A stretch of DNA of 64,000 nt from Pseudochrobactrum asaccharolyticum (GTDB lineage: Bacteria > Pseudomonadota > Alphaproteobacteria > Rhizobiales > Rhizobiaceae). The notes under the pieces are model-generated. The model had not been told where the DNA came from. It did no database searches and saw only the letters and a list, made by a program, of their open reading frames with translations. Of the stretch, positions 31,086 to 48,887 are shown one piece after another (the stretch's first letter is position 1; each line of letters starts with the position of its first letter). Both the position numbers and the translations under genes were made by a program. Location: positions 258,553 to 322,552 of the forward strand of contig NZ_QNRH01000003.1 of assembly GCF_003314995.1 (NCBI RefSeq). Reading direction: 5' to 3'.

Positions 31086-31203
31086 TTATATACGTCATTT
31101 GACGGATGCGGTTTTACACTTTGAGGCCATATATTTTTCCCTGACGAAACCACGATACGAGCGCATACAATGCGCTGCTCAAAAAGTTCGTCGGGGAGGC
31201 TTC

Positions 31204-32691
31204 TTGTCATTATCAGATATAACCGAATTATCGACGGCTGCTGCAATTGCTGATGCAGTTAAATCAGGCGAAGTTTCACCTGTCGAGGTGATTGATGCGA
31301 CTATCCAACGTATAGAACAGCGTAATCCGAGCTTGAGTGCCGTGACATATCAGGATTATGCAGGAGCGCGTCAAGCAGCCCGGCAGCTTGAAAAAGCCAT
31401 TATCAAAGGTGAGCCGACAGGTTCTTTAGCCGGTGTTCCGGTTTTGATGAAGGATTTATTCGGCTTTAAGCCAGGGTGGCCGGCCAGCTGCGGGCTGGTT
31501 TCGGTATTGCGTGATAATCTGGCAACGGGCTGGAGTATGTTTCCGCAAAGAATGGAAGCTGCCGGTGCCATTGTTCTGGGACAGACCAATAGTCCGGTTT
31601 TTGGTTTTCGCGGTACCACCGATAATAAAACTGTCGGCCCCACCCGCAACCCGTTTGACCTCACCCGTAATTCCGGAGGTTCCTCAGGAGGCAGTGCAGC
31701 AGCTGTTGCAGATGGTTTGGTTCCTCTGGCCGGTGCAACAGATGGCGGCGGTTCTATCCGCATACCGGCGGCGTGGTGCGGAGTGGTTGGATTTCAGCCA
31801 TCCGCAGGACGGATACCGTTTATAGCACGTCCCAATGCTTTTGCGATATCTTGCTATTTATATGAGGGGCCGATTACCCGTACGGTAAAAGATGCAGCTT
31901 TAGCAATGACAGCCTTACAAGGGGCTGATGTGCGTGATCCTTCGTCATTGAGTGTCGATGCAGATTTCCAGCAGGCATTGGTGCAGGGTGTTAAAGGTAA
32001 GAGAATAGGATTTACGCCCGATTTTGGCATCTTTCCTGTTGAGCTAAAAATTAAAGAACTGGTTACAAGTGCGGTTAATACATTCGCAAATGCAGGCGCG
32101 ATTGTTGAAAATATACATATTGGATTTGATTATTCACAAAGTGAACTGAGTGCTTTATGGAGCCGGATTACAGCAATCGGCGTTTATAATACGCTTGAAG
32201 AATTGAAAAACAAAGGGCGTGATTTACGGTCGCTTTGTCCGGATGAGCTACCCGACAGCATGATGCGTTGGGTTGATGCTGTGCCGTCCTATACATTTCA
32301 GCAATTGAGTGAAGATCAGAAAATCCGCACACGTATATATGACCGTTTTACGGCTCTGTTCGAAACTTATGATTACATTGTCGCTCCGACACTTGCTGCA
32401 ATGCCTGTTCTCAATTCAACAGATGGTGAAACACAAGGGCCTTGTAAGATTAACGGAGAAACAGTGGATCCGTTGATCGGCTGGTGCATGACTTACCTGA
32501 CAAATTATACCGGCAATCCGAGCGCATCTGTTCCGGCGGGACTGGTAGATGGTTTGCCTGTCGGCCTGATGGTCATCGGCCGCAGGCATGATGATGCCGG
32601 AGTGATGTCCGCTATTGCGGCTTTTGAGAGCGAGAGACCCTGGGAGGGAATCTACCGTATTCCGGAAGGGAGGTCCTTGGACAGACCCTGA
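31204..32691 (+). CDS. Amidase-signature hydrolase, probable TTG start
   Basis: An amidase of about 495 residues with the full signature triad: Lys in VPVLMKDLFG, cis-Ser in RNSGGSSGGSAAAVADG, and the nucleophile Ser in DGGGSIRIPA. The frame is open back to 31027, within the LuxR gene, but the upstream part is not amidase-like. A TTG at 31204 stands six bases behind a strong GGGGAGG site and gives the usual family start SLSDITELSTAAAIADAV. Substrates of this family are small amides, half-amides and N-carbamoyl compounds. The NCS1 permease gene follows. Confidence 0.85.
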   Translation: MSLSDITELSTAAAIADAVKSGEVSPVEVIDATIQRIEQRNPSLSAVTYQDYAGARQAARQLEKAIIKGEPTGSLAGVPVLMKDLFGFKPGWPASCGLVSVLRDNLATGWSMFPQRMEAAGAIVLGQTNSPVFGFRGTTDNKTVGPTRNPFDLTRNSGGSSGGSAAAVADGLVPLAGATDGGGSIRIPAAWCGVVGFQPSAGRIPFIARPNAFAISCYLYEGPITRTVKDAALAMTALQGADVRDPSSLSVDADFQQALVQGVKGKRIGFTPDFGIFPVELKIKELVTSAVNTFANAGAIVENIHIGFDYSQSELSALWSRITAIGVYNTLEELKNKGRDLRSLCPDELPDSMMRWVDAVPSYTFQQLSEDQKIRTRIYDRFTALFETYDYIVAPTLAAMPVLNSTDGETQGPCKINGETVDPLIGWCMTYLTNYTGNPSASVPAGLVDGLPVGLMVIGRRHDDAGVMSAIAAFESERPWEGIYRIPEGRSLDRP

Positions 32692-32768
32692 CCGGTTTGA
32701 CGGATAAGCACATAAAATCAGATCAAGAAGCGGGGGTAACTCGCGGCCATTGCCATGGAGGAAAAGGC

Positions 32769-34103
32769 ATGGAACAGCATAAAATTAAAAATAGGGATGA
32801 TGGTGAATTACTGGCGAATGAATACGAACACGAACCGGTTCCCGCATTTGCGCGCCGTAGTGTCGCCTCCGTTACGACAGTCTGGTTAGGATTTCCAATG
32901 ATTATCACCTGTGCCATGACCGGTTCGATGCTGGTGGCAAGTATGGGATTTTCAAAGGCTTTCTGGGCTATTATTACCGGTAACATTTTATTGTTTTTGC
33001 TGGTGTCCGTAATCGGGGCTGTAGGCGCACGTACGGGTATGAACTTTGCGCTACTGGCAAGCAATGTTTTTGGCAGGCGCGGCTATGTTGCAGCTTCAGG
33101 CTTGCTGTCTTTACTGATCCTTGGCTGGTTTGCGGTACAGGTGGGTTTTACCGGCAATATTCTGCACGCAGCTTTCGGGTATAATTATTTCATTATCTCA
33201 CTCATTGCAGGGCTGTTTTATCTTGGCATTACCCTGATAGGTATTCGCGGATTACATTGGATTGGAGTAATCTCGGTGCCTACATTTATCATTCTCGGCA
33301 CATGGGTGGCTTTTGATGCGGTGTCACGTTCGAATCTTGCTGATGTCTGGGCTTATGCAGGAAATGAAAATGGCGTGCCGATGGCTTTTGGCGTGGCTAT
33401 AACTGTGGTGATCGGTTTGTTTATTGACGGGGCAACCGTCTCACCCGATTTTAATCGTTGGGCAAAAAACAGTACTCATTCATCTGTTGCTGCTTTTATT
33501 ACTTTCCCGATTGCTCATACTTACGCGCTGTTGCTGGGAGCCGTGATGACTGCTGCATTGGCATTGCCTGAGGCCGATCCGTTTGCTTTGGACAATATGG
33601 TTGGCTATATTTTAAAATATGGCGCGCCATGGTTGCTGCCGCTGGCAATCATCTTTCCATTTATCAGTTTCGGTTCTGTGTGTTCGCACAATCTTTATAT
33701 GTCGGCGGTAAACTGGTCTCGCATCGTTGGTGTTAAAATGCGTACTGCAGCAGTTATGCTGGCCGTGTTCGGTATTGCGATTGCGGCTGGCAATGTGTGG
33801 TCTTATTTCATTCCGTGGCTTAATTTGCTCGGTATTTTAGTACCACCGGTTGGCGCTATTTTTGCCGTGCATTTTTATACCGTGTCACGTGACCCCGTAC
33901 CGGTTGACTCATGGCGTCTAAGTGCTTTTGCTGCCTGGGGAGTTGGTTCTCTCGCCGCCTATCTGATTGATCATTTTGCTCCGCAAATGTCGACGTCTAT
34001 TTCATCATTCTGTGCTGCTGCGATTGCTTATTGGATTATTTCCCATCTGGTCGTGGCAAAACAGGGAGCGGGGCGTGAAATTGTTCAAAATATAAGTAAT
34101 TAA
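32769..34103 (+). CDS. NCS1-family permease (CodB/cytosine permease-like)
   Basis: A permease of about 444 residues with about twelve helices. Segments such as SVATVTTVWLGFP-like SVASVTTVWLGFP, the amphipathic GMNFALLASNVFGRRGY and DGATVSPDFNRWAKN are characteristic of the nucleobase:cation symporter-1 family, near cytosine permeases. A TTG at 32697 is in frame, but the ATG at 32769 with GGAGG behind it matches the family length. It probably imports a nucleobase, hydantoin or related amide for the preceding amidase. Confidence 0.88.
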   Translation: MEQHKIKNRDDGELLANEYEHEPVPAFARRSVASVTTVWLGFPMIITCAMTGSMLVASMGFSKAFWAIITGNILLFLLVSVIGAVGARTGMNFALLASNVFGRRGYVAASGLLSLLILGWFAVQVGFTGNILHAAFGYNYFIISLIAGLFYLGITLIGIRGLHWIGVISVPTFIILGTWVAFDAVSRSNLADVWAYAGNENGVPMAFGVAITVVIGLFIDGATVSPDFNRWAKNSTHSSVAAFITFPIAHTYALLLGAVMTAALALPEADPFALDNMVGYILKYGAPWLLPLAIIFPFISFGSVCSHNLYMSAVNWSRIVGVKMRTAAVMLAVFGIAIAAGNVWSYFIPWLNLLGILVPPVGAIFAVHFYTVSRDPVPVDSWRLSAFAAWGVGSLAAYLIDHFAPQMSTSISSFCAAAIAYWIISHLVVAKQGAGREIVQNISN

Positions 34104-34229: not shown

Positions 34230-34847
34230 TTAAAGCTTGCAATAATCCCGCATCCGGTTGGCCAACGCTTGCTGGTCATCTTTATCCAGCTGTTCGGTTG
34301 CGGCTTTCATGTCACCGCTGCGTTCATCCTGCCCGAGCTTGAATTTCACTTCCATCTTTTCGATAGGCATGGTGTAACCGAGAATATTTGGCAGGCGGCG
34401 CCCCATGCCACCGGGGCCAAGCTCTTTCATTTGCCACGGCTTGTCACGGCCGCGCTCCATATGGACCACCAGATCCTGCAAATGCTGAACAGTCTCGGCA
34501 TCGCTCATAATTTCCGGCTTGCCATGAATATGCGCGACCATAAAGCTCCATGTCGGCGCACTGTCACGCTGCGGGTAATTCGGATACCACGAGGAGGAAA
34601 TATAGCTGCCCTGATCCATCAGAATAGCCACAGAGGGCAGACCGGCGCGCAAATATTGTCCGTGATCATTATTCATCGCAATGTGAGAGATCAGACGACG
34701 GTTTTGCCGGTCAATCATAAAGACCGGATGGGAGATCGCCACGCCGTTTTCATGCGGGGTAATCAGCGTACCCAGCACAGTGCGATCAATAAGATCAAAA
34801 ATCTCATCGTCATTATGCGGCTGAAAATAGTCTTTGGTATAAAGCAT
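34230..34847 (-). CDS. PaiB-like FMN-binding split-barrel protein
   Basis: A protein of about 205 residues of the PaiB family (FMN-binding pyridoxamine-oxidase-like fold), recognised by MLYTKDYFQPHNDDEIFDLI, LGTLITPHENGVAISHPVF, the WYPNYPQRDSAPTWSFM segment and MAHIHG-like VAHIHGKPEI. Bacillus PaiB influences protease expression; most homologues are uncharacterised. An in-frame start at 34910 would lie inside the amidase gene; the ATG at 34847 follows GAGGA and fits the family. It is the last gene of the C45/ABC operon. Confidence 0.85.
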   Translation of the reverse strand: MLYTKDYFQPHNDDEIFDLIDRTVLGTLITPHENGVAISHPVFMIDRQNRRLISHIAMNNDHGQYLRAGLPSVAILMDQGSYISSSWYPNYPQRDSAPTWSFMVAHIHGKPEIMSDAETVQHLQDLVVHMERGRDKPWQMKELGPGGMGRRLPNILGYTMPIEKMEVKFKLGQDERSGDMKAATEQLDKDDQQALANRMRDYCKL

Positions 34848-34860
34848 GTGTTTGATGTCC

Positions 34861-36312
34861 TCAGGCGCAAATCGCAGGGCGGCGACTATCCCACGGATAG
34901 GCACGTTCAAGCTGGGCGGCCAATGTCAGAAGGGTTTCTTCCTTGCCATTTGCCGCAATGAACTGCATGCCGAGCGGTGTGTTTTCTGCGGTTTGCAGCA
35001 GCGGAACACTCATAGCAGGCGCACCGGCGGCATTGACCGGATGGGTGAACATGGTCAGTTCCATGAACTGGCGGGCAAAATGCTTCCAGTCATTTGAGCG
35101 GACATTCAATGTGCCTTTATCGAAAGGCAGACATGGCAATACGGGTGACAGCACCACATCCACGGTGCTGAACATGCGTCCGAAACTGCGGGCGGTTGCG
35201 TTGACCTGATTGCGGGCACGCAGAATATCCAGACCACTGAGTGAGCGACCATATTCGGCAAGGCCGAGATTGCTTGGCTCAAAGAAGTCACTATTGATTG
35301 GCTTGTCGAAATCACGCGCCAGATCATCCACTTCCATCGCCGTATAGGTGGCCACCAGTCTGGTGAAAGCATCGCTTAAAGCCTGCGCATCATAATCCGG
35401 TGTGATCTCAACAATCTCATGTCCAAGAGCCGCACACATATCTGCGGTTTTATGCAGGGCTTCCAGTACAGCCTGCTCGACCGGTGTTTCCAAGCCGGTT
35501 TTCTGCCACAGTCCGATGCGCAATTTACGCGGCGTCTGATTGACCGCCTGCATGAATGTACCGGTTTTGGCCGGCGCACTGTAAAGCGCGCCTTGCTCCG
35601 GAGCATCAGTCAGATCGAGCAACAAAGCGCTGTCGCGCACTGAACGGGTCAGGACGTGATGGCTCACCAGCCCGCCCCAGTTTTCAGTCGAAACAGGGCC
35701 GCAAGGAACCCGTCCGCGGGACGGGCGCAGGCCAAACAGGCCGGAGCAGACGGCTGGGATACGGATAGAACCGGCACCGTCATTGCCATAGGCTACCGGA
35801 ACCATGCGCGCGGCAACGGCCGCCGCTGCACCACCCGAGGAGCCGCCAATGCTTTTGCTGACATCCCATGGATTGAGCGTTGCACCATGCAGGCTTGGCT
35901 CGGTGGCAATATTGCAGGAGAATTCCGGTAAATTGGTTTTGCCGATGATGACCAGACCGGCAGCACGATAACGGGTCACCAGTTCATGATCCCGCTCAGG
36001 CACATTACCATCGGCTGCACGGCAGCCATAGGACATTGGTGCACTGGCATAAGACGGACAGTCGTCTTTCAGCAAGGTCGGCACACCAAACAGCGCCCCC
36101 TGATCCTGCGGGGATTGAGCGGCAAGCTGGTGCAATTGTTCGTCTGCTGCATCGCGCATTTCGCAGATGACGGCATTCAGTTGCGGATTAACACGGGCAA
36201 TGGCTGTAAAAGCTTCATCAACCGCTTCACGCGGAGAAAGCACTTTGTCCTTAATGGCTTGCGCCAGACCTGTTGCATCACTGTCAGTATAATTAAATTC
36301 AGGCGCGGCCAT
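34861..36312 (-). CDS. Amidase-signature hydrolase
   Basis: A 483-residue amidase with Lys in VPTLLKDDCP, cis-Ser in GGSSGGAAAAVAARM and nucleophile Ser in GNDGAGSIRIPA. It is different from the amidase at 31204. It lies between the peptide-binding protein and the PaiB-like gene, with an AGGACCTCC ribosome site. In the operon context it probably hydrolyses the imported amide, or the product of the C45 enzyme. Confidence 0.9.
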   Translation of the reverse strand: MAAPEFNYTDSDATGLAQAIKDKVLSPREAVDEAFTAIARVNPQLNAVICEMRDAADEQLHQLAAQSPQDQGALFGVPTLLKDDCPSYASAPMSYGCRAADGNVPERDHELVTRYRAAGLVIIGKTNLPEFSCNIATEPSLHGATLNPWDVSKSIGGSSGGAAAAVAARMVPVAYGNDGAGSIRIPAVCSGLFGLRPSRGRVPCGPVSTENWGGLVSHHVLTRSVRDSALLLDLTDAPEQGALYSAPAKTGTFMQAVNQTPRKLRIGLWQKTGLETPVEQAVLEALHKTADMCAALGHEIVEITPDYDAQALSDAFTRLVATYTAMEVDDLARDFDKPINSDFFEPSNLGLAEYGRSLSGLDILRARNQVNATARSFGRMFSTVDVVLSPVLPCLPFDKGTLNVRSNDWKHFARQFMELTMFTHPVNAAGAPAMSVPLLQTAENTPLGMQFIAANGKEETLLTLAAQLERAYPWDSRRPAICA

Positions 36313-36339
36313 AGGAGGTCCTGTTCATAAAGGGGAGAA

Positions 36340-36362
36340 CGATGCCGGAATATCCGGCATCG
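36340..36362 (-). other. Intercistronic hairpin after the binding-protein gene
   Basis: A perfect 10-bp stem (36340-36349 with 36353-36362) and three-base loop, just downstream of the minus-strand binding-protein gene and before the amidase. It resembles the hairpins after other binding-protein genes of this window. Confidence 0.55.
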
Positions 36363-36372
36363 CGAATTAGTT

Positions 36373-37929
36373 TCAGTCTTTTTTGCTCACGCCCCAGAGA
36401 CGGTGAGTACCGGCCGGCCAGCCTTTGTAATCCGCAACTTTAGGATTAAGCGCTGTAATTGTCGGCAGGTTGAACAGGCCGATGATCGGCACTTGCTTTG
36501 CCGCCAGCTGATGCAGCTCATTGTAGATTTTCTTACGCTCTTCGAAGTCCTGCGTATTCGCAGCCTTGGTGCGCAAAGCAATGGCTTCCTTGTCATCCCA
36601 CTGATGCGCAGGCTCCTGTGCTTTGTCGCCGATCAGCGACTGGTACATCAGCAGCGGGTCAAGGCGTGCGGAATAAGCAAAAATTTCCATCTCATAATCG
36701 CCGCGGCGATAACGGTCGAGCTGGGTTGCCCAGTCACGCACTTCCAGCTGGGCATTGATGCCTGCCATGTTGAGCATGGCCTGTACAATGGTTGCGACCT
36801 GCACACGATCATCGCGGTTGGAAACCAGCAGGCTGATCGGCTCGCCATTATAACCGGCTTCAGTCAGCAGGGCGCGCGCCTTCTCCACATCATAAGCAGG
36901 CCAGGTGGCGGTGCTTTCATCGCGATACGGGCTTTCCGACGGGATGATAGACGGATTGGCAACATAGCGTCCTTCGCCAACAGCACCGACAAGCTGTGTC
37001 AGATCAATGGCATGTGCAATGGCCTGACGCATACGCACATCTTTGAGGCGCGGAGCATTGGTTTGCAGATGCAGGGTCATCCATGATGGTGTTTGCTGAA
37101 TGTCGACATTCATGGATTTTGCGGTCAGCGTATCGATCAGTGTCGGATCGACTTCGTCGATCATCTCAATATCACCGGCAACAAGACCATTGCTGCGGGT
37201 GCTGGCATCAGGAACCGTCATAAAGCGCAGGGTCGGAATAAGCGCCTGTTTGTTACCGGCATAGCCGTCTTTGTCTCCGGCAAGGGCGCTGTAATCATCG
37301 AATTTTTTCAGTTCAACATAGCGACCGGTTTGCCATTCGTTGAACAGATAGGGGCCGGTACCGACAGGCTTGTCAAATTTGCCGTCCGCAGCCACAGAAG
37401 AGGGGTGGAGTATCCACGGTGTGCACTGAATTGTCGCCAGCGTCATCAGAAAATTCGGTGCCGGTGCGTTGAATTTCACCGTAACCGTATAGTCATCCGC
37501 AGCGCTTACATCTTCAATCGCAGCGCCGATGGTGCCATTATAACGGCCGGTACATTGAAAGTCGGTTTCTGCATTCAAATAGCGCTTGAAATTCCAGACA
37601 ACATCTTCAGCCTTCATTTCACTGCCATTGTGAAACTTTACGCCTTTACGCAAATGAAACACATATTCTGTTGCTTCCGGATTGCTGCTCCAGCTCTCGG
37701 CCAGCATCGGCTTAATGGTCAGGTCTTCACCATAGGCAACCAAACCTTCAACCACATGCGCCAGAACCATATCTGACGGACCATCACGGTTTACACCCGG
37801 ATTTTTACTGCCGATATCGGAGTGCAGAGCCAGCCGCAGAGTTTGCCCTTCCTGCGCGGAGGCAGCAAAGGAGAGGCTGCTTACCATGATGCTGAATGCC
37901 AGCACTTTCAGACTGTTTTTAAAAATCAT
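36373..37929 (-). CDS. Dipeptide/oligopeptide-type periplasmic binding protein (family 5)
   Basis: A 518-residue DppA/OppA-type binding protein. The signal peptide ends in LSFAASA with cleavage before QEG. Family features include ESWSSNPEATEYVFHLRKGV, KFHNGSEMKAEDVVWNFKR and ARALLTEAGY. It feeds the two permeases encoded at 40460-42219. AGGGGAATA precedes the ATG. Ligands of this family range from peptides to nickel chelates, opines and glutathione; here an N-acylated compound is possible from context. Confidence 0.93.
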   Translation of the reverse strand: MIFKNSLKVLAFSIMVSSLSFAASAQEGQTLRLALHSDIGSKNPGVNRDGPSDMVLAHVVEGLVAYGEDLTIKPMLAESWSSNPEATEYVFHLRKGVKFHNGSEMKAEDVVWNFKRYLNAETDFQCTGRYNGTIGAAIEDVSAADDYTVTVKFNAPAPNFLMTLATIQCTPWILHPSSVAADGKFDKPVGTGPYLFNEWQTGRYVELKKFDDYSALAGDKDGYAGNKQALIPTLRFMTVPDASTRSNGLVAGDIEMIDEVDPTLIDTLTAKSMNVDIQQTPSWMTLHLQTNAPRLKDVRMRQAIAHAIDLTQLVGAVGEGRYVANPSIIPSESPYRDESTATWPAYDVEKARALLTEAGYNGEPISLLVSNRDDRVQVATIVQAMLNMAGINAQLEVRDWATQLDRYRRGDYEMEIFAYSARLDPLLMYQSLIGDKAQEPAHQWDDKEAIALRTKAANTQDFEERKKIYNELHQLAAKQVPIIGLFNLPTITALNPKVADYKGWPAGTHRLWGVSKKD

Positions 37930-37953
37930 ATTATTCCCCTGTTTTTATAATTT

Positions 37954-38805
37954 TTAGTAACGACCTTGCACAACATCCGTGAAGAATGCCTCTGCGGGCT
38001 CAATCACGCGGAAAGGCTCATGGGCGACACCGGCCACAGTATCGCGGCGTACCCGAATGCCCTGTGTTTCAAAAGATTTGGCCAAAGCTTCAATGCGATC
38101 CAGCCGGTTTTCCCCCATCAGATCGGCACCATCCATCCAGAAGGCGCTGTCACGCGGAATGGCTATTTCCCATGTGAGATTGTCTTCCGTGCCGATCAGG
38201 GTCTGCACTTTCACTTCGCGCATAGCATCGAGATTGATTTTTTTGCCAAACAGAGCTTCGATATTTCGGGTGCCGACCCACCAGTCATAATCGGAGTTGA
38301 GCAGGGTCACGACGCCCGGTGCGCCGATAGACACAGCTGTCAGGCGTTCCGGATGCAGCATGAAAAACCGCTGGCTGAACTGACCACCACCGGAGAAGCC
38401 ATACATCATAAAGCGATTATCTTTGAGGCGGTATTTGGCAGCCACCTCATCGACCATCGACAGCAGAATTTCATCATAGCGAATATCGTGAAATTTGATG
38501 CGCTTGTAATTGGAAAGCTCATCTTTCTGGATAATGCCGACCGGAAACAGCGGTGCCAGAATAATGCAGTCGTTCTTCTCGGCGAAGTCAGCAAACCGGT
38601 CACGATATTGCGATGCCGTACGCCCTGTGCCATGTACAATCACGACAAGATTATAGGTTTTTGTATCTGTTTCGCTATAGGATTCAGGTACATAGAGGCA
38701 ATAGCTGAAGCGTTGATCCTGCTGACTGGCAAAGAACGGCGTGGCACCGAAATCATAAAAGCTGAGCTTAATGCCGTGGCCTTCGCGTTTAACAGTTGAT
38801 GACAT
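37954..38805 (-). CDS. Alpha/beta-hydrolase (PHB-depolymerase/esterase-like)
   Basis: A hydrolase of about 283 residues. VIVHGTGRTASQY provides the oxyanion-hole HG motif, and MYGFSGGGQFSQRF carries the nucleophile serine in a GFSGGG elbow, as in polyhydroxybutyrate depolymerase- and feruloyl-esterase-like proteins. A histidine near the C-terminus (GVAHEPF) may complete the triad. No signal peptide is seen, so it is cytosolic. An upstream start at 38850 would overlap the ATPase gene; the ATG at 38805 follows GAGGAAAAT and is preferred. Confidence 0.82.
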   Translation of the reverse strand: MSSTVKREGHGIKLSFYDFGATPFFASQQDQRFSYCLYVPESYSETDTKTYNLVVIVHGTGRTASQYRDRFADFAEKNDCIILAPLFPVGIIQKDELSNYKRIKFHDIRYDEILLSMVDEVAAKYRLKDNRFMMYGFSGGGQFSQRFFMLHPERLTAVSIGAPGVVTLLNSDYDWWVGTRNIEALFGKKINLDAMREVKVQTLIGTEDNLTWEIAIPRDSAFWMDGADLMGENRLDRIEALAKSFETQGIRVRRDTVAGVAHEPFRVIEPAEAFFTDVVQGRY

Positions 38806-38828
38806 ATTTTCCTCCCCATATGGGTTCA

Positions 38829-40463
38829 TTATGCGGCTTCGTTGCGCCATTTCAGGCGTACGCCGCCGGTGCCGGTCGTTTCTAAAATCGGGATCGCCGA
38901 AAGCAGCTGACGTGTATAATCCGTCTGCGGATGGTCAAAGATTGCGTCCCGTGTGCCTTGCTCGATAATCTTGCCGTCTTTCATCACCACCACGCGGTCT
39001 GCGATCTGCTCCACCACCCCGAGATCATGGCTGATAAACAGGCAGGCAAAGCCATAGCGCTCCTGTAATTCCGCCAGTAGATCCAGCACTTGTGCACGCA
39101 CAGTCACATCCAGAGCGGATACGGCTTCATCGGCAATCAGAAAAGCAGGGCGACGTACGAGAGCGCGGGCAATGGCAATACGCTGGCGCTGACCACCGGA
39201 AAGCTCATGCGGAAAGCGTTCTGCAAAATCACCGCCAAGGCCGACATCCTCCAGCGTGCTTTTCACCAGAGCGCTTTTTTCTGCTGCACTTAAACCCTCT
39301 GATAAACGCAGTGGCTCTGCCACGAGCTGCCCGATTTTCATCCGTGGGTCGAGGGATGAGTAGGGATCCTGAAACACAAGCTGGCAATTGAACCGGTAAT
39401 CATTGAAATGATTATTTTTACGACTGACCTGTTGGCCTTTATAGCTGAGTGTGCCGGATTTAGGCTGTACGAGACCGGCGATAACCCGCGCCAGCGTCGT
39501 TTTTCCGGAGCCGGAGCCGCCGACAATCGCCACGACTTCTTTCGGGAAAATTGTAACGCTTACATCATCCAATGCGGTTTTAACCGGTGCTTTTTGAAAC
39601 AGGCTTTTATTACCGATAAAATCGACAATGATATTATCTGCCTGCATCAGAGCTTCACCGCTTGCAGGCGCACGGGCAGGAATGCGGCGTGGCAATGTTG
39701 AAAGCAGTTTGCGGGTATAATCATGCTGCGGATTGCTCAGAACCTGCTCGGTCAGGCCTTCCTCAACCAGATCACCGTAGCGCATCACAACAATACGGTC
39801 GCAATAACGCGCGACCATCGGCAGATCATGGCTGATCAGCAAAACGGAGGTGCTGTTCTCGCGGGTCAGTTTGAGCAGCAGTTCCATGATTTCGCGCTGG
39901 ACAACGGCGTCGAGCGCAGTTGTTGGCTCGTCCGCAATCAGCAAATCCGGTTGCAGCAACATGGCCGAAGCAATCATAATACGCTGACGCATGCCACCGG
40001 AGAACTGGTGCGGATGGGCACTCAGTGCTTTTTCACCGTCCTTGATGCCGACCTTTTCCAGCATGTTAATGATCTTAAGCCGCCGCTCTTTTTTGCTTTC
40101 CTGCGGATAGTGCAGTTCCAGCCCTTCTTCCAGCTGCCGGCCAATCGTCAAAGACGGATTGAGCGAGGTCATCGGCTCCTGAAAGATCATAGCAATGCGC
40201 TTGCCGCGAATAGAGCGAATGGCTGTACCATTCATGGCAAAAACATCTTCGTCGTCGAAGCGGATGGTTCCATTGATCGGCTGAATGGTTTTCGGCAGCA
40301 ATTTCATGACGGCGCGTGCCACCATGGTCTTACCGGAGCCGGATTCGCCAACCACGCCGACAATCTCACCGGAGCCGACATGGAAACTGACCTGTTTTAC
40401 CACCTGCGGGCCGCTCTGGCCGACACGCAATGTCAGGCTGTCGATTTCAAGTAGCGGGTTCAT
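38829..40463 (-). CDS. Fused dipeptide-type ABC ATPase (DppD-DppF in one chain)
   Basis: A protein of about 544 residues holding two ATPase domains. The first (about 5-260) has GESGSGKT, FSGGMRQR and LLIADEPTTALD; the second (about 285-540) has GGSGSGKTT, LSGGQRQR and FLIADEAVSALD, a Walker B variant common in DppF-like domains. The ATG at 40463 overlaps the permease stop as ATGA; an upstream ATG at 40571 would lie in the permease gene. It powers the importer of this operon. Confidence 0.93.
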   Translation of the reverse strand: MNPLLEIDSLTLRVGQSGPQVVKQVSFHVGSGEIVGVVGESGSGKTMVARAVMKLLPKTIQPINGTIRFDDEDVFAMNGTAIRSIRGKRIAMIFQEPMTSLNPSLTIGRQLEEGLELHYPQESKKERRLKIINMLEKVGIKDGEKALSAHPHQFSGGMRQRIMIASAMLLQPDLLIADEPTTALDAVVQREIMELLLKLTRENSTSVLLISHDLPMVARYCDRIVVMRYGDLVEEGLTEQVLSNPQHDYTRKLLSTLPRRIPARAPASGEALMQADNIIVDFIGNKSLFQKAPVKTALDDVSVTIFPKEVVAIVGGSGSGKTTLARVIAGLVQPKSGTLSYKGQQVSRKNNHFNDYRFNCQLVFQDPYSSLDPRMKIGQLVAEPLRLSEGLSAAEKSALVKSTLEDVGLGGDFAERFPHELSGGQRQRIAIARALVRRPAFLIADEAVSALDVTVRAQVLDLLAELQERYGFACLFISHDLGVVEQIADRVVVMKDGKIIEQGTRDAIFDHPQTDYTRQLLSAIPILETTGTGGVRLKWRNEAA

Positions 40464-41278
40464 GAGCGTTTCCTCAGTCGTGGATCGAGCAGATCGCGCA
40501 GGGCATCGCCAAGCAGATTGACGCCAAGCAGGGTGAGCGAAATAGCAAGGCCGGGGAAAATACCGAGCCACATGGCCTGCTCGATATGAGCGCGGCTACC
40601 GGCCAGCATATTGCCCCAGGTTGGTGCGGGAGGAGCAACACCAAGGCCAAGGAAACTGAGGGAACTTTCGGCGAGCAAAACCCAGCCCAGCATGGAGGTC
40701 GCCATAACTGTGATTGGTGCCAGGCAATTGGGCAGAACATGGCGCAGCATGGTGAAGAACTCAGAATTGCCCATTAAGCGGGACGCCTGAATATATTCAA
40801 GCTCACGGATGGACAGTACCGTGCCACGCACAATACGGATGACCGAGGACATATAGGCCAGCGCCAGTGCGAGAATGATACCTTTTTCATTGGCGCCAAA
40901 AACAGCAAGCAGCCCCAATGCCAGCAACATGCCGGGGAAGGCCATCAATGCGTCATTGACGGCCATTAGAATGCGGTCGAACCAACCGCGCAGGAAACCG
41001 GTCAAGGCACCAAGAAACACACCAAATATTGTCGCGAGCAATACGGTCAGCAGGCTGATACGGGCGGAAGCTGCCGCACCGCGCATCAGGCGGCTGAGGA
41101 CATCGCGGCCATATTCATCAGTGCCGAACGGGTGGGCAAAGCTGGGTGCCGCGAGTTTGGCAGCAAAATTGAGTGCCAGCGGGTCATAGGGTGTCCAGAA
41201 GGAACCAACCAGCATAACACAGCCGATACTGCCGACCAGAGTGCCGCCGATGAGAAGGTTTAAAGGCAGATGTTTCAT
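40460..41278 (-). CDS. Dipeptide-type ABC permease (DppC family)
   Basis: A 272-residue permease with an N-terminal helix, the OppC-type segment HPFGTDEYGRDVLSRL and the C-terminal LGDALRDLLDPRLR motif. Its start overlaps the stop of the DppB-like gene as ATGA. It forms the heterodimeric channel with that protein. Confidence 0.93.
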   Translation of the reverse strand: MKHLPLNLLIGGTLVGSIGCVMLVGSFWTPYDPLALNFAAKLAAPSFAHPFGTDEYGRDVLSRLMRGAAASARISLLTVLLATIFGVFLGALTGFLRGWFDRILMAVNDALMAFPGMLLALGLLAVFGANEKGIILALALAYMSSVIRIVRGTVLSIRELEYIQASRLMGNSEFFTMLRHVLPNCLAPITVMATSMLGWVLLAESSLSFLGLGVAPPAPTWGNMLAGSRAHIEQAMWLGIFPGLAISLTLLGVNLLGDALRDLLDPRLRKRS

Positions 41279-42219
41279 TGTGCCGTCACCTTCGGATCAA
41301 AATACGGATAGACGAGATCAACAATCAGATTCACCACCACGTAGATACCGGCGATGAACAACAGGCAGCCCTGAATAACCGGATAGTCACGGGCAAAGAT
41401 CGCATTAACCAGCAGACGGCCAAGACCTGGAATGGTGAAAACCGTTTCAACAACCGCAACACCGGCCAGAAGATTGCCGAGGATGAGACCAAGCAATGTC
41501 CATGTCGGGCCGAATGCATTGCGGAAAGCATGGCGCCACATCACGGTGCCTTCAGACAGGCCTTTGGCACGGGCATGCATAATATATTCAAGGTTCAGCA
41601 CTTCCAGTGTCGAAGCGCGCGCCATACGCATGATAACGCCGATCTCATGGAGAAACAGCGTCATCACCGGCAGGATCAGATAGATCAGCGCGGCCTTCGG
41701 GCTTTCTGAAAAACTGACATAGCCGACAACTGGCAGCCAGCCGAGCTTCATGCCGAAGCCAAGGATCAGCAACAGCCCCATCCAGAATGTCGGGATAGAG
41801 AGCAGTAATGTCGCGCAGCTGACAACAGTAAAATCTGTGAGGCTGTTTTGCTTCCATGCTGCGATCATACCCAGCGGTACAGCAACCAGAGTTGCCAGCA
41901 CTACGGCAGTAAATACGATCGTGGCACTGGTGGAAAAGCGGTCAAGGATCAGCCCTAAAACCGGTTCTTTATTGGCGATGGAAACGCCAAAATCACCCTG
42001 CAGAATATTGCCTGCCCAGATGAAAAACTGCGTGGCAATACTTTGGTTTAGCCCCAGTCTTTCACGCAGGGCTTCCAGCGCTGCGGCATCTGCCGCATCG
42101 CCGAGCATCATCGCTGCCGGATCGCCCGGGATCATGCGGACGATGACGAAAACCGCCACCGCCACAATGATCAGCGTAGGAATAGCCATGACTATTCTTG
42201 TCAGTGCAAATCGAAGCAT
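41275..42219 (-). CDS. Dipeptide-type ABC permease (DppB family)
   Basis: A 314-residue permease with six helices. MLRFALTRIVMAIPTLIIVA, MIPGDPAAMM, LEYIMHARAKGLSE and FTIPGLGRLLVNAIFARDYP are standard DppB features. It begins four bases after the C45 gene ends, so the enzyme and importer are strongly coupled. Confidence 0.93.
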   Translation of the reverse strand: MLRFALTRIVMAIPTLIIVAVAVFVIVRMIPGDPAAMMLGDAADAAALEALRERLGLNQSIATQFFIWAGNILQGDFGVSIANKEPVLGLILDRFSTSATIVFTAVVLATLVAVPLGMIAAWKQNSLTDFTVVSCATLLLSIPTFWMGLLLILGFGMKLGWLPVVGYVSFSESPKAALIYLILPVMTLFLHEIGVIMRMARASTLEVLNLEYIMHARAKGLSEGTVMWRHAFRNAFGPTWTLLGLILGNLLAGVAVVETVFTIPGLGRLLVNAIFARDYPVIQGCLLFIAGIYVVVNLIVDLVYPYFDPKVTAQ

Positions 42220-42223
42220 GGCC

Positions 42224-43390
42224 TTAGCCTTTTATCGATACAGCCTGCGCAGGTTTTCCGGCATCCGCAGGTACCGGCGTGTCATTGCGCAGTGTATAGC
42301 TGGTGAAGGTACGGTTGAGCGCCGGCAAAGGGGCAATTTCCATGAAATTCAACGCGGCTTCCATGATAACCATGGCAACGGTTGCGGTGAGATTGCTGGT
42401 GTCGCTCGGGCGTGGCGGACGGCAAACAGCAAATGGCGTGAGAAAATCATCAAACAGGGCAGTTTTCAGCGCCTGACGATCGAGCTTCTCACCCTGCTGT
42501 TCAAGGATTTTACGCACGCGCCAGTCACGATAGAAGCTTTCTGCTACATAAGGACGACCGGTATCCACCAGTTTGGACAATGCGACAGGGCTGACCCAGT
42601 GATTGGCATGCACGATCAGGTCGTTTTCAGGATACAGCGGGAATGCCTCATCCGGCGCACATTCAAAATCAATACCGAAACCGGCAGCACTCGCAATCAT
42701 AATATTGTTAGAGCAGGATTTTGGTGTGGTTGCTACAGTCTTGATTGCTTTAGCAAAATGTTCCTGCTCAAGCACTTTACGGCGCAGCAGACCCAGCGGT
42801 ACACCGAGTTTTTTATAATCGCGGTCACATTCCAGATAATTGGCAGTAATCGTAATGCCTGCCTCATTGAAGCCGCTGCGTGCCAGACCGCCAGCCTCAA
42901 CAAAGGTGACATAATCCGGTCCGTCTTCGCGCTGAACGCGCAGAACAACACCGGTTTCAGCACATTCCGCACGCCAGTCCCAGTTCTGGCCGTGCACCAG
43001 ATTTCCGGTTTTGCTGCGTTCCGGCATGATCAGAGCGCCGGTACAGCCGTCATCCAGATCATCCTCTTCCGGCGCGCCGGTCATGGTACGTGCCATGGCC
43101 ACAACTTCGGTACGGGCATTGATCATCACAATGTCTTCAAAAGCAACGCCGGAGCCATCGCTGATGCCGCGCATTTCTTCCAGATAGAGTGGTTCAAATT
43201 CGGTAATCTTGGCCGCGCAATCATCAATCAGCTTGCTTTTTTGTGCAGATGAAAGACCGAAGCCGGTCAGTGTGCCGGTATAGAGCTCAGCACTGCGTGT
43301 AATACGTGATTTCAGCAAGACCCCGTATTGACGACCACGCTCATAGGCTTCTCCGGTCAGGGCTACAAAAGGAAATGGCTCAATCGTCAT
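42224..43390 (-). CDS. C45-family Ntn acyltransferase/amidohydrolase
   Basis: A 388-residue protein of peptidase family C45 (acyl-CoA:6-aminopenicillanic-acid acyltransferase type). The self-processing site is probably Gly115-Cys116 in DDGCTGA, and NWDW near 137 is a conserved pocket motif. After autocleavage, Cys116 would be the N-terminal nucleophile. Members hydrolyse or transfer acyl groups on amides, including penicillins and acylated amino acids. It is the first gene of the operon, so it may act on the imported compound. No signal peptide is seen. Confidence 0.85.
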   Translation of the reverse strand: MTIEPFPFVALTGEAYERGRQYGVLLKSRITRSAELYTGTLTGFGLSSAQKSKLIDDCAAKITEFEPLYLEEMRGISDGSGVAFEDIVMINARTEVVAMARTMTGAPEEDDLDDGCTGALIMPERSKTGNLVHGQNWDWRAECAETGVVLRVQREDGPDYVTFVEAGGLARSGFNEAGITITANYLECDRDYKKLGVPLGLLRRKVLEQEHFAKAIKTVATTPKSCSNNIMIASAAGFGIDFECAPDEAFPLYPENDLIVHANHWVSPVALSKLVDTGRPYVAESFYRDWRVRKILEQQGEKLDRQALKTALFDDFLTPFAVCRPPRPSDTSNLTATVAMVIMEAALNFMEIAPLPALNRTFTSYTLRNDTPVPADAGKPAQAVSIKG

Positions 43391-43412
43391 TGGGGTGTCC
43401 TGTATTGTATTT

Positions 43413-43429
43413 TGTATTTATGTAATACA
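43413..43429. promoter_or_regulatory. Candidate GntR operator ahead of the C45 operon
   Basis: TGTATTTATGTAATACA is a perfect 6-5-6 inverted repeat, 23 bases upstream of the C45 start codon, where a bound dimer would block transcription. Two more TGTATT/GTATT copies lie directly beside it (43401-43412). The divergent GntR protein is the likely ligand. Confidence 0.55.
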
Positions 43430-43573: not shown

Positions 43574-44542
43574 GTGCCTGGATTATGTATAAACAAAAAA
43601 CAGAAATGGCTCATGGTTTCACAGCGGGAAGTACAGGGAAATACAGCTGAATCTGCCGGTTTCGACTGGGAGCTGAGCGGCTTGCAGGCGGATGTGGCGC
43701 GCAAGGTTCTCGCGCTGATCGGTTCCGGTAAATGGCAGTTACAAGAGCGTATTTCGGATGCTGCACTGTCGCGGGAGCTGAATGTTTCTCGCTCGCCCGT
43801 ACGCTATGTGCTGAATCTGCTGACCGAATATGGTCTTGTCGCGCATGTGGCAGGCAAGGGGTATCATCTCACAAGAATGCCTGCGGAAGGTGAGTTGATT
43901 GATCAGCTGATACCGGAATCAGAAAATACCAATCTTTATAATGATCTTATGACCGCACGCGCCATGGGCGTTATTGGTACGGAAGTTTCCGAAACAGAGC
44001 TGGTGGAGCAGTTTAAGGCGACGCGCGGAGCTGTGCGCCGCGCCTTGATGCGCTTTTCTGCTGAAGGACTGGCAGAGCGGCTGCCAGGGCATGGCTGGCG
44101 TTTCACAGAGTCGCTGGACAATGAACGCGCGGTGCAAGAGAGCTATACATTCCGTCTTGTGGTGGAGTGTGGTGCTCTGATGCAACCCGATTATGCCCCG
44201 CAGGAAGATCAGCTTCAGGCATTGCTGCGTCAGCAACAGGCTATTCTTGATCTGCCGGTTGGCCAGCTTTCCAAAGATGCATGGTTCCATGCCAATGCGA
44301 CTTTTCACGAAGCCATTGTTTCATGGGCGAATAACAGGTTCTTCACGCAATCTGTTCGCTGGCAGAACAGCTTGCGGCGTATGACTGAATATGCGGATTT
44401 TGGCAAGCTGAGTGAAAAACGGCTGCATGATGCCTGCCACGATCATATGGCAATCTTACGGGCGATACAGGACGGCGATATCAACTTTGCCGCTGCATTA
44501 CTACGCCGCCATATTTCCCGTTCCAGCCGCGATGATTTGTAA
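43574..44542 (+). CDS. GntR/FCD regulator with two winged-helix modules
   Basis: A 322-residue regulator. The first winged HTH (about 35-100) includes ERISDAALSRELNVSRSPVR; a second winged-helix-like segment follows (about 120-178; TEVSETELVEQFKATRGAVR and then RALMRFSAEGLAERLPGHGW). The C-terminal FCD domain (about 185-320) has histidines in TFHEAIV, CHDHMAIL and LRRHI. Two DNA-binding modules in one chain are not usual for FCD proteins. A GTG at 43574 or the ATG at 43613 may be the start. It is divergent from the C45 operon and probably its repressor. Confidence 0.85.
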   Translation: MPGLCINKKQKWLMVSQREVQGNTAESAGFDWELSGLQADVARKVLALIGSGKWQLQERISDAALSRELNVSRSPVRYVLNLLTEYGLVAHVAGKGYHLTRMPAEGELIDQLIPESENTNLYNDLMTARAMGVIGTEVSETELVEQFKATRGAVRRALMRFSAEGLAERLPGHGWRFTESLDNERAVQESYTFRLVVECGALMQPDYAPQEDQLQALLRQQQAILDLPVGQLSKDAWFHANATFHEAIVSWANNRFFTQSVRWQNSLRRMTEYADFGKLSEKRLHDACHDHMAILRAIQDGDINFAAALLRRHISRSSRDDL

Positions 44543-44605: not shown

Positions 44606-47155
44606 TCAGAAACGTGCTGTGGTACTCAAGCGGAAAGTACGGCCGGGAGATGGCGTAAGTGCTTCACTCATTGCATCCAGATAGTACCGGTCAAACATGT
44701 TCTCGATACTCGCATTGAATGAGAAATTATCGTTCAGCTTGTAGGACGCAAAAGCATCATAAATCTGATAGGAGCGCCACTCACTTTCGACCATACCGAC
44801 ACCGCTGCGTTTGAGTGCACGATCTCCAACAAAATTAACGCGGCCGCCAACGGTCAGGCTATCTTCAAACAAGCGGGCACCCAAAGTCACTGATCCGCTA
44901 TAGACCGGCGGTACATATATGCTCTGATAATCATCAGGCGGGGTGCTGTCTTTACACTGAGCACTTTCCCCTGCACGTGTTGCAAAGCAATATTCCACAT
45001 TGGTGTAGCGGTTGAAATTTGCATCGGCGAAAAACATGCCTGCATCATAAGACATCGAAATTTCGAAACCTTTGAATTTTGCTCCGTCAATATTCGCATA
45101 GACCCGATAAGGATAAGGCAGACCGGCCCGGTTACCAAAAGTCCGGATAATGTAATCATCATAGCTATTATCGAAATAAGCCAGTTTAAAGCGTAGTTTA
45201 TCATCATCAAGTAACAGATCGTCATTGAGATAATTGACGCCGATTTCGTAGTTTTCAGAACGTTCCGGTCTGAGGAGCGGGTTCGGCTCAATCAGACCTG
45301 GCATATTGAAAAGTGTTTCACGGATACTTGGAGGGCGCCAGCCCTGAGCATAATTCGCAAAAATCTGGAATCCGTCGAGCGGCTCAACTGTAACGCCCAG
45401 TCTTGGTGTCAGCCGTGATCCGTCAAGACCTTCAATCGACGAGTTCTCACTGTTGTCACGCGTTTGATAACCTTGGTAGCGCAAACCTGCACTAAGGGTC
45501 AGCCAGTCCACCGGCTTATAATCAGCATTCGTGAAAACAGCACCAACCGTACGTGTGCCTTCCATTCCGATATTGGTGTCCGGATTTTGTACGGTTTTCT
45601 CATAGGAATATGTAACACCGTAATTTAAGTCAAAAACGCCAAAACCGGTTTCAATGTGCGATGCATTCGACACTTCTGCACCGGTTGTATCGGTTTTAGT
45701 GTCGCCAGGAACTCCGGTCAGAATTTCTATTGCTGCCCAGTTATCAGACAAACGCGTATGCCAGACATTGGCCTGTAAATTGATCAGATCATTGTCATCA
45801 GGGTTCCATGTATATTTTGCTGTATACATATCCGACTTGGTACGGCTTAAATTTGCCTGATAGGGTGGCCAGCCACCTATGGCGACGGGATTGTTCATAT
45901 CGCCGTATTCTTCACCATATTTACTGTCATAACGAATATAGCCGAGCTCAACGGTTTGATCATGGTCGAAATTAAATTTCCCCTTGAGCAAAACAGACTT
46001 GGTGTCCTGCGATGTATTGAAAATTTCGCTGCCCGGTTTATAGGCCGACATTGGTCCCCAGTTGTATTTGCCGCCAAATGAAAAACGTTTGACCTGCCGC
46101 TCACCATGTTTACCGGCGAAATAGTTCCCGTTACGGCGGTAGGCAAAGGCACCAACCAGCTCGTAATTATCCTGTTTGGTTGCCAGAGCAATGCTGCCAA
46201 TATTGCTGCTGCCGTTTAGCCAGTCATTGCCGCCAAAACGTGGTGCTTCTGTTGCAGGTGGAGAAAAATACTCACGCGGCTTGACACTGTTTCCGGAAAA
46301 ACCACCTTTGATTTTAATACCATAAGACTTGCCATCCATCACTATATCATCAGCGGTTAGGGTACGCATATTGACTACACCACCCATTGAACCGCTGCCT
46401 TGCGCGCCTGATGGCGGTCCTTTTTGGATGTCAATGCCACCGATAAATTCTGGGTCGACAAAGGTGCGGCTGCTCATGCCTTTATAACCGCGATAGGCGG
46501 ATGAGCTTTGTTGTGCGCCGTCAACGAGGGTGGCAACGCGGTTCATGCCTTGCAGACCACGAATATTCACATCCAAAGCCTGTCCGGTGCGATTGCCGGA
46601 AGAAATTACACCCGGTGCATTACGGAATACATCACCTGTAGATGAGGGCGGTACGATCTGAATTTGATCCGCACTAATATAAGAAGATGAACCGGCAGTC
46701 TTATAAGGTAAATCCGCATTGCTTGCGGTGCCGCTGACGGTAATTGTTTCCAGTATAACGGAGCCATCTGCACCCCCGGCATTATTGCTTGCCGATGAAA
46801 TACGGTCGCTGATTGTGACTGTATTTGCATTGGTGAAGTTGTAGGTCAGGCCGGTGCCTGCCAACAGCCGTGATAAGGCTTCATGTTTGCCCATCGTACC
46901 CTGAAGACCGGAGGAGCTCTTGCCGCGCACGAGGTCAGCCGGATAAAGGATCTGAAGATTTGATTTATCCCCAAAACGGGAAATTACTGCGCCCAAGGAT
47001 CCGGCAGGGATTGAGTAACTGATGTTTGTCTGCTGGGCATAAGCGGTTTGCATAAAGGATGGGCTGATCTGAAGTGCTGTTGTCGCCAGCAGAGCCAGTA
47101 ACAATTTTCCTGTTTTCATCCCTATGGATACGTTGCCTGAAAGTTCCGTCTGCAT
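44606..47155 (-). CDS. TonB-dependent outer-membrane receptor with STN signalling domain, possibly heme
   Basis: A receptor of about 849 residues. After a signal peptide ending AYA comes a secretin/TonB short N-terminal domain (about 45-110; SIPAGSLGAVISRFGDKSNL), used for cell-surface signalling to FecR, then a plug (about 140-270; VNIRGLQGMNRVATLVDG) and a 22-strand barrel ending in the C-terminal Phe of TTARF. RGLQGMNRVATLVDGAQQ, NPLLRPERSENYEIG and YYLDAMSEALTPSPGRTF resemble HasR and other heme receptors. Possible starts are 47200, 47155 and 47119; 47155 is a compromise. A TGA-N9-TCA box lies upstream. Confidence 0.85.
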   Translation of the reverse strand: MQTELSGNVSIGMKTGKLLLALLATTALQISPSFMQTAYAQQTNISYSIPAGSLGAVISRFGDKSNLQILYPADLVRGKSSSGLQGTMGKHEALSRLLAGTGLTYNFTNANTVTISDRISSASNNAGGADGSVILETITVSGTASNADLPYKTAGSSSYISADQIQIVPPSSTGDVFRNAPGVISSGNRTGQALDVNIRGLQGMNRVATLVDGAQQSSSAYRGYKGMSSRTFVDPEFIGGIDIQKGPPSGAQGSGSMGGVVNMRTLTADDIVMDGKSYGIKIKGGFSGNSVKPREYFSPPATEAPRFGGNDWLNGSSNIGSIALATKQDNYELVGAFAYRRNGNYFAGKHGERQVKRFSFGGKYNWGPMSAYKPGSEIFNTSQDTKSVLLKGKFNFDHDQTVELGYIRYDSKYGEEYGDMNNPVAIGGWPPYQANLSRTKSDMYTAKYTWNPDDNDLINLQANVWHTRLSDNWAAIEILTGVPGDTKTDTTGAEVSNASHIETGFGVFDLNYGVTYSYEKTVQNPDTNIGMEGTRTVGAVFTNADYKPVDWLTLSAGLRYQGYQTRDNSENSSIEGLDGSRLTPRLGVTVEPLDGFQIFANYAQGWRPPSIRETLFNMPGLIEPNPLLRPERSENYEIGVNYLNDDLLLDDDKLRFKLAYFDNSYDDYIIRTFGNRAGLPYPYRVYANIDGAKFKGFEISMSYDAGMFFADANFNRYTNVEYCFATRAGESAQCKDSTPPDDYQSIYVPPVYSGSVTLGARLFEDSLTVGGRVNFVGDRALKRSGVGMVESEWRSYQIYDAFASYKLNDNFSFNASIENMFDRYYLDAMSEALTPSPGRTFRLSTTARF

Positions 47156-47253
47156 GATTGTAATGATACTCCGACCTGATGCCGCATACCGGCATAACAA
47201 TGCCCTTTACAAGCAAAGACGAGTCCTGACGGTTACTCCCTCACCATTAAAGT

Positions 47254-47268
47254 TGAAAATAATTATCA
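47254..47268 (-). promoter_or_regulatory. Iron-responsive operator (TGA-N9-TCA), receptor gene
   Basis: TGAAAATAATTATCA matches the IRO core TGA-N9-TCA bound by RirA in rhizobia. It lies 99 bases ahead of the receptor start at 47155, within an AT-rich gap. It suggests iron repression of the receptor besides sigma-factor control. Confidence 0.6.
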
Positions 47269-47306
47269 TGTTATAATGTTTCTGATCCGTAAGGCATTTT
47301 TGCCGA

Positions 47307-48260: not shown

Positions 48261-48386
48261 CGTAACCGCCGGCTGTTTTGTTGTATGTGCGTAAAACCGG
48301 ATCTATGGCCGGTGTGACATGCTTATTATTAAGACGTTTTATGCGGCCGGATACCTCACTCTTGATCCCGGAAAAATCAAATATAA

Positions 48387-48887
48387 TCATTCCAGATGCT
48401 CGCCAAGATGTTCACGACAATGCGCAAGCGCCTTCATGATCAGTTTCTCTACACCGCTGCGCGTGATACCTAATTTTTGCGCGATCTCCGTATGGCTTAG
48501 GCCATCAAATTTGTGCATCAGAAAAACGTCTCTTTGCCGTGGAGGCAATGTTGCAATAGCTTTTTCAAGCAATGCAAGACGTTGCCGATAATCCGTTACG
48601 CGTTCCTGATCCGGAGCTTCATCAGCCGCATCAAAGGTTTCAGCGGAACCGAAATAACGATTTTTAGCTTTCGCCGCACGAAAATAATCTTTGGCGAGAT
48701 TATCGGCGATACGAAATAAGTAAGAGCGTATATTCTTGATCTCACTTCGTTTTTCAGTGCCGTGAATGCGTAAAAATGTATCCTGAGTAATATCTTTTAT
48801 GGTTTCAGGGTCATGACCTTTCTGCCGCAAGAAACGGGCAATATCCGTTGCATGCCGTCTGAACAGATCTTGAAGGTCCCAATTCAT
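48387..48887 (-). CDS. ECF sigma factor, FecI-like
   Basis: A sigma factor of about 166 residues. Region 2 spans about 8-75 (DPETIKDITQDTFLRIHG) and region 4 about 105-160 (LPPRQRDVFLMHKFDGLSHT, GITRSGVEKLIMKAL). Domain order and neighbours define the FecI group. The reading frame runs back to 48986, but an IRO box occupies 48971-48985, and the family normally starts near MNWDLQDLF, so the ATG at 48887 is preferred. It should direct transcription of the receptor gene when the ligand is bound. Confidence 0.92.
   Translation of the reverse strand: MNWDLQDLFRRHATDIARFLRQKGHDPETIKDITQDTFLRIHGTEKRSEIKNIRSYLFRIADNLAKDYFRAAKAKNRYFGSAETFDAADEAPDQERVTDYRQRLALLEKAIATLPPRQRDVFLMHKFDGLSHTEIAQKLGITRSGVEKLIMKALAHCREHLGEHLE

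Follow-up and report, generated by a model that had tools for sequence, protein, structure and literature searches.

In the nylon-oligomer system of Arthrobacter and Agromyces, nylB and nylC lie together with an oligopeptide permease, and the catalytic as well as the substrate-binding residues of NylA are named in the same report (PMC7019077). Two further enzymes are of relevance: poly(aspartic acid) hydrolase-1 (PahZ1) is described to cut beta-amide (beta-aspartyl) bonds (PMC4456602), and the insect protein Tan, a member of the C45 family, to degrade N-beta-alanyl dopamine (PMC10194958). Here, we compare these systems with an eight-gene operon of Pseudochrobactrum asaccharolyticum (RefSeq assembly GCF_003314995.1), located on the minus strand at positions 34230-43390 of a stretch of 64,000 nucleotides from contig NZ_QNRH01000003.1 (in the following, the window). 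It encodes, in gene order, a putatively self-processing N-terminal nucleophile (Ntn) hydrolase of the C45 family, the permeases DppB and DppC, a fused double ATPase (DppDF), an alpha/beta-hydrolase, a periplasmic substrate-binding protein, an amidase-signature hydrolase and a PaiB-like protein. Very probably, this conserved block serves to take up an unusual amide-linked compound and to cleave it inside the cell. On balance, we lean towards an inducible uptake and cytosolic hydrolysis of a small compound with non-alpha amide bonds, which would release an omega-amino acid or a diamine.

Position and composition of the block are as given in the original prediction, i.e., all eight genes belong to the families named there according to Pfam and NCBIfam. 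Its claim of a single transcription unit is supported as well, in that adjacent genes overlap or are separated by no more than 60 bp, downstream of a conserved operator and of a divergently oriented GntR regulator gene, neither of which is mentioned in the original prediction. From C45 (42224-43390) via DppB (41275-42219), DppC (40460-41278), DppDF (38829-40463), the alpha/beta-hydrolase (37954-38850), the binding protein (36373-37929) and the amidase (34861-36312) to the PaiB-like gene (34230-34847), the intergenic distances after start correction are 4, -4, -4, -22 to +23, 24, 60 and 13 bp, where the range reflects the uncertain start of the alpha/beta-hydrolase (38850 or 38805). The likely ATG starts of DppDF (40463) and the PaiB-like gene (34847) were set by sequence reading; for DppDF, this yields an ATGA overlap with DppC, and the gene calls in relatives (codon-usage caller) agree.

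The divergent regulator on the plus strand (43574-44542; its true start may be the ATG at 43613) carries two GntR helix-turn-helix stretches in tandem, N-terminal of an FCD domain. Directly upstream of C45, an operator-like inverted repeat, TGTATTA-N10-AAATACA, is found at 43406-43429. When aligning the intergenic stretch of the window with those of 18 relatives that have the same operon type, the repeat is present just before C45 in 15/19 cases, and in 16/101 C45/GntR intergenic stretches overall (duplicates included). An exact search of the whole genome gave a single further site, which lies between the ends of two convergent genes and adds no regulon member; allowing for one mismatch, the counts equal the control pattern. 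Given the position of this sole other site, the operon looks locally regulated.

A scan of GTDB genomes provided 80 loci with C45 relatives, for each of which about 21 kb were fetched and genes were counted by their presence in the stretch. The six-gene core (C45, DppB, DppC, DppDF, alpha/beta-hydrolase, binding protein) is found in 62 of the 80 loci, all eight genes in 14, and seven (without PaiB) in 4 further ones. That is, the operon is conserved across genera and not scattered in its closest relatives, which was the neighborhood check proposed with the original prediction. The eight-gene form occurs in Pseudochrobactrum, Brucella/Ochrobactrum, Phyllobacterium, Comamonas, Mesorhizobium, Ectorhizobium, Rhizobium and one Achromobacter, i.e., in Alpha- and Betaproteobacteria. 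Since the same genes recur in other genera and two classes, we do not consider the operon a chance grouping. The record of the close species P. kiredjianiae (locus L019) holds the entire operon with a C45 of 99% identity, and in a tree of C45 proteins the window falls inside a well supported set of 14 rows that mostly come with amidase and PaiB. A second form, typical of Bosea, consists of C45, binding protein, a second GntR, hydrolase, binding protein, DppB, DppC and DppDF without amidase or PaiB; both forms can occur together in Achromobacter genomes. C45, importer and binding protein are the core, joined by the alpha/beta-hydrolase in most lineages near the window, while amidase and PaiB are accessory.

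The system as a whole is accessory, too, and patchy in its distribution. Of 151 genomes of the family, 12 have a C45 match (E<=1e-20), which in 7 cases reaches at least 48% identity (window genome included); the sole other genome of the genus in that sample has none. At E<=1e-60, 16/397 genomes of the order, 17/289 of the class and 9/398 of the phylum show a match, each time including the window genome. The module has also moved onto enterobacterial plasmids: a conjugative Klebsiella pneumoniae plasmid (L236; NZ_CP141562.1, 52612-71706) encodes GntR, alpha/beta-hydrolase, C45, binding protein, DppB, DppC and ATPase. A record titled Bacillus subtilis SK6B4 (L017; JAHREI010000003.1) contains the operon with a C45 99% identical to that of the window and is probably a mislabelled or contaminated assembly.

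The strongest independent sign for a substrate with non-alpha amide bonds is the repeated recruitment of omega-aminotransferases. In the C45 loci of relatives, class III aminotransferases adjoin the regulator or sit inside the operon. For counting, 124 C45 loci were grouped into 35 lineages at 75% identity, whereby a few same-region duplicates (e.g., L116 and L030) were absorbed by the clusters; at 60% identity, only 9 clusters result, which leave no power for accessory genes. As controls, we used 54 stretches of 20 kb taken at random from these genomes and 20 other Dpp-type operons, 9 of which are from the window genome. A class III aminotransferase is located anywhere in the locus for 11/35 lineages compared to 3/54 random stretches (Fisher test, p=0.0015), and 8/35 lineages remain (p=0.019) when it is required in at least half of a lineage. 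Restricted to the cluster itself or a distance of at most 2 kb, 10/35 lineages are positive; with one representative per lineage, these are 8/35 versus 1.33 expected (p=7e-5). The probe proteins of several families were taken from loci that are counted positive, and 6 of the 10 positive lineages supplied probes. The clean test is therefore the hold-out, i.e., lineages composed solely of loci fetched after the aminotransferase idea had been written down. Here, 4/9 lineages are positive versus 0.59 expected (p=0.003). The other Dpp-type operons show none (0/20; Fisher test, p=0.006).

Six of the relatives' aminotransferases (Bosea c17, L122, L131, L132, L194, L205) exceed the AptA equivalog cut-off, and the L029 and L207 enzymes fall into different class III subfamilies. 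On the C45 tree (65 rows), presence or absence of the aminotransferase has to change at least 10 times, i.e., the gene was repeatedly joined or lost. On a Tistrella mobilis plasmid, amidase, GntR, aminotransferase, C45 and DppB-C-DF are accompanied by an annotated succinate-semialdehyde dehydrogenase (SSADH). The Rhizobium etli IE4771 plasmid combines C45 with a class III aminotransferase, two polysaccharide deacetylases, an annotated SSADH and an esterase of polyhydroxybutyrate (PHB)-depolymerase type, while an M20 peptidase and Dpp genes are found on the other side of the regulator. Among 11 plasmid C45 regions viewed (a non-random choice from 72 plasmid records with a C45 match), 6 hold a gene annotated as class III or 'aspartate aminotransferase family', one of which (H1) is the same plasmid as L194. 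Polysaccharide-deacetylase-like genes are repeatedly located beside C45 genes, also distant ones (L272, 12180-13519; L133, L008, L009, L012, L015).

NylB-like hydrolases are near C45 in 3 lineages versus 0.19 expected (p=0.001), two of which were probe sources; the one of L120 has NylB as nearest solved relative (221 bits). M20, P1 and flavin-reductase genes are, each on its own, not significant in the adjacency test. PaiB is present in 6/35 lineages (any member) versus 0/54 random stretches and 0/20 Dpp operons, with only p=0.056 for the latter comparison. Taken together, the recurrence of class III omega-aminotransferases, semialdehyde dehydrogenase-like enzymes and NylB-like hydrolases speaks for omega-amino-acid or diamine amides and not for acylated alpha-amino acids or beta-lactams, which changes the original interpretation.

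A rival reading would be the catabolism of an N-acylated diamine or polyamine, e.g., a hydroxycinnamoyl or other acyl putrescine, from which the hydrolases free the diamine while aminotransferase and SSADH provide the path from putrescine to succinate. The PaiB family is linked to polyamines, and class III aminotransferases act on diamines, too. The window's PaiB-like protein is a member of this family (Pfam FMN_bind_2, 114.3 bits at a cut-off of 22.4). Furthermore, NylB-like genes on Pararhizobium and Shinella plasmids (L274, L275) lie with ABC importers of a different, extracellular-solute-binding type and with amidohydrolases, for Pararhizobium along with an annotated N-carbamoylputrescine amidase, which hints at a natural role of NylB relatives on polyamine amides. 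An agmatinase is found near the Klebsiella cluster and a carboxynorspermidine decarboxylase near that of Chelatococcus. These neighbors are, however, single cases counted against no control, the NylB-like plasmid loci lack C45, and AptA is named for omega-amino acids, such that we consider polyamine amides an unlikely substrate.

With regard to the importer, both permeases match Pfam BPD_transp_1, DppDF contains two ATP-binding cassette (ABC) ATPase domains, and the binding protein belongs to SBP_bac_5. The scores stay far below the NCBIfam equivalog cut-offs, with 106.7 versus 1005 bits for the binding protein (DppA) and 218.1 versus 590 for the permease (DppB); the top NCBIfam match of the latter, Opp2B, reaches 296.1 bits at a cut-off of 350. 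We aligned E. coli DppA (MG1655 record) with 28 binding proteins from 22 sources (the window plus 21 chosen loci). The column of DppA Asp436 (mature Asp408), which we take to anchor the amino group of the dipeptide, is empty in 28/28 proteins, and the adjacent column is Arg in all of them. As judged from this alignment, plain dipeptide uptake is unlikely, which supports the dedicated importer of the original prediction over the simple dipeptide transport named there as the opposite outcome. The window genome encodes 23 DppB-like matches at E<=1e-40, i.e., unusually many peptide-type importers for 4.6 Mb.

The missing Asp also bears on the question of whether the operon simply scavenges modified alpha-peptides (isoaspartyl, D- or N-acyl) with hydrolases of relaxed specificity. 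Such a role would fit the Dpp-type of the importer, the M29 aminopeptidases and D-aminopeptidase/DmpA-like P1 peptidases near Bosea clusters, and the cleavage of beta-aspartyl bonds by PahZ1 itself (PMC4456602). Without the Asp in any of the 28 binding proteins, and with omega-aminotransferases being unexpected for alpha-peptides, it appears improbable to us.

Among the hydrolases, the C45 protein exceeds the cut-offs of its family models (Pfam AAT, 41.8 bits at a cut-off of 23.2; NCBIfam C45_proenzyme NF040521, 285.6 at 85). By sequence as well as by fold (AlphaFold2 model with a predicted local distance difference test (pLDDT) of 88), its nearest solved relative is isopenicillin-N acyltransferase, whose Gly102-Cys103 aligns with Gly115-Cys116. 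The nucleophile Cys116 is kept in 19/19 aligned C45 proteins and the preceding Gly in 15/19 (Glu in 2, His in 2 distant paralogues). No signal peptide was seen by eye, from which we take the enzyme to be cytosolic. A breakdown of beta-lactams or acyl-homoserine lactones, as originally suggested, would find its motivation here, since the acyltransferase that makes penicillin belongs to C45. Apart from this family name, nothing found points to penicillins, acyl-homoserine lactones or lactones: no beta-lactamase, phenylacetate or quorum-sensing gene was recognized among the neighbors viewed in a non-systematic search, and the recurrent partners in relatives point elsewhere. We thus rate such substrates as very improbable.

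The alpha/beta-hydrolase has no Pfam match at E<=0.001 and only weak NCBIfam esterase/PHB-depolymerase matches below cut-off. It is closest to PahZ1 by sequence and by Foldseek (model pLDDT 79) with an aligned catalytic serine motif, and Ser153, Asp223 and His277 are invariant in 16/16 aligned proteins. The gene is specific to C45 clusters, i.e., present in 17/35 lineages but in 0/54 random stretches and 0/20 other Dpp operons. The amidase (Pfam Amidase) has NylA as nearest solved relative (240 bits versus 157 for aryl acylamidase, the next family), and the catalytic Lys72, Ser150 and Ser174 of NylA are aligned and kept. It occurs in 8/35 C45 lineages versus 1/54 random stretches (p=0.002). 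Families and conservation across genera thus support the originally predicted co-occurrence of several hydrolases of amide/ester type. At 31027-34103, the window further holds two genes convergent with the operon, namely another one with amidase signature and, behind it, a gene that by eye resembles nucleobase transporters; amidases related to the former recur near C45 in L132, L194 and L205.

Several observations weigh against omega-amino-acid or diamine amides as substrate. First of all, the window operon itself has no aminotransferase, and neither do most of its nearest relatives (in that clade, only L029 does), such that our reading rests partly on relatives; 25/35 lineages are without a class III aminotransferase within 2 kb. 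On the other hand, an AptA above cut-off is encoded in the window genome outside the operon. For SSADH on its own, the adjacency test gives no significance (p=0.09), and the three SSADH-like proteins that were scanned are below the curated cut-off. With regard to the hydrolases, the identity to PahZ1 is only about 20% and LpqC is nearly as close by fold. The substrate-binding Cys316 of NylA is replaced by Val320, for which reason we do not file the window amidase as NylA, and the amidase excess over other Dpp operons is not significant (8/35 versus 2/20 when counting either amidase type, p=0.21). Finally, the nearest solved structure is not the function.

A different kind of omega-amine source would be a hydroxamate siderophore of desferrioxamine, bisucaberin or alcaligin type, or a fragment thereof, i.e., an omega-amino-acid oligomer whose N-hydroxyl groups are stripped by MOSC/flavin proteins. 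Desferrioxamine B is reported to serve as carbon source via hydrolysis of its amides (PMC12364333). TonB/Fec-type genes are found beside C45 or the regulator in the window (44606-48986), L017, L022, L033, L034, L120, L129 and on a Rhizobium plasmid (L271). In the window, these are a TonB receptor, a FecR-like gene and an open reading frame (48387-48986) that is FecI-like by position, all adjoining the regulator; a similar sigma factor-FecR arrangement is located beside C45 in L271 and in L017. When counted anywhere in the locus, 9/35 lineages versus 3/54 random stretches are positive (nominal Fisher test, p=0.009), and none of the 20 Dpp operons. The adjacency test failed, however, with 3/35 lineages within 2 kb of the cluster versus 1.71 expected (p=0.24), and in P. 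kiredjianiae, a close species, the operon lacks a neighboring TonB gene. A MOSC-domain gene directly follows the alpha/beta-hydrolase in L118 and L119, i.e., in 2/35 lineages, but the respective p=0.016 stems from a series of twelve tests, and L119 had supplied a probe. For the window operon, a siderophore substrate is thus quite unlikely in our opinion.

For the omega-amino-acid or diamine amide that we prefer, the following course can be sketched. The divergent GntR protein would repress the operon via the palindrome before C45. The periplasmic protein would bind the substrate other than via a free peptide N-terminus, and DppB-C-DF would import it. In the cytosol, the C45 Ntn hydrolase, the PahZ1-like alpha/beta-hydrolase and the NylA-like amidase may cleave different amide or ester bonds. 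The presumed product carries a primary amine at its chain end, i.e., an omega-amino acid like beta-alanine or gamma-aminobutyric acid, or a diamine. A class III omega-aminotransferase, together with a semialdehyde dehydrogenase, would pass it to central metabolism, with the aminotransferase encoded elsewhere in the window genome.

The loci may represent a widespread natural system that dismantles omega-amino-acid or diamine oligomers or conjugates by means of a Dpp-type importer, interchangeable amide hydrolases (C45, PahZ1-like, NylA-like, NylB-like, M20, P1), an omega-aminotransferase and a semialdehyde dehydrogenase, and that is the natural source setting of nylon-oligomer hydrolases. In some lineages, the substrate might even be an omega-amino-hydroxamate siderophore. 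We regard this generalization as possible but doubtful. To our knowledge, no genes for the bacterial degradation of such siderophores are known, though their degradation is reported. If our preferred reading is right, it would place NylA- and NylB-like hydrolases in a natural setting, which bears on the origin of nylon-degrading enzymes and on finding new polyamide-active ones. C45 is annotated in many bacterial genomes; here, it is linked with a dedicated importer as well as, in independent lineages, with omega-amine catabolism, such that an open annotation turns into short substrate lists to test. Within the open-licence literature searched, which leaves most subscription papers outside, neither the gene combination, in line with the original prediction, nor a characterized catabolic role of a bacterial C45 is described.

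Compared to E. coli DppA-DppBCDF, the importer is built from the same families of permeases, ATPases and binding protein, but is far below the DppB and DppA equivalog cut-offs and without Asp436 in its binding protein. The C45 enzyme shares fold and Gly-Cys nucleophile with isopenicillin-N acyltransferase of Penicillium and with insect Tan; in contrast to the former, with only about 21% identity over the fold alignment, it is part of a bacterial catabolic operon with its own importer. PahZ1 is the closest protein to the alpha/beta-hydrolase by sequence and fold, including the catalytic serine motif, while the latter shows no signal peptide by eye, and the polymer cut by PahZ1 is not a likely import substrate. 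As an arrangement, the nylon-oligomer system is the closest one known. It differs in that C45 takes the place of NylC, in its bacterial hosts and in the Cys316 of NylA, which the window amidase does not keep, and nothing indicates a nylon-oligomer substrate for the window. What both have in common is a peptide-type importer next to hydrolases of omega-amino-acid amides with an aminotransferase as the next step, i.e., a NylA-like amidase in the window and NylB-like hydrolases in L120, L128, L129 and, more distantly, L210.

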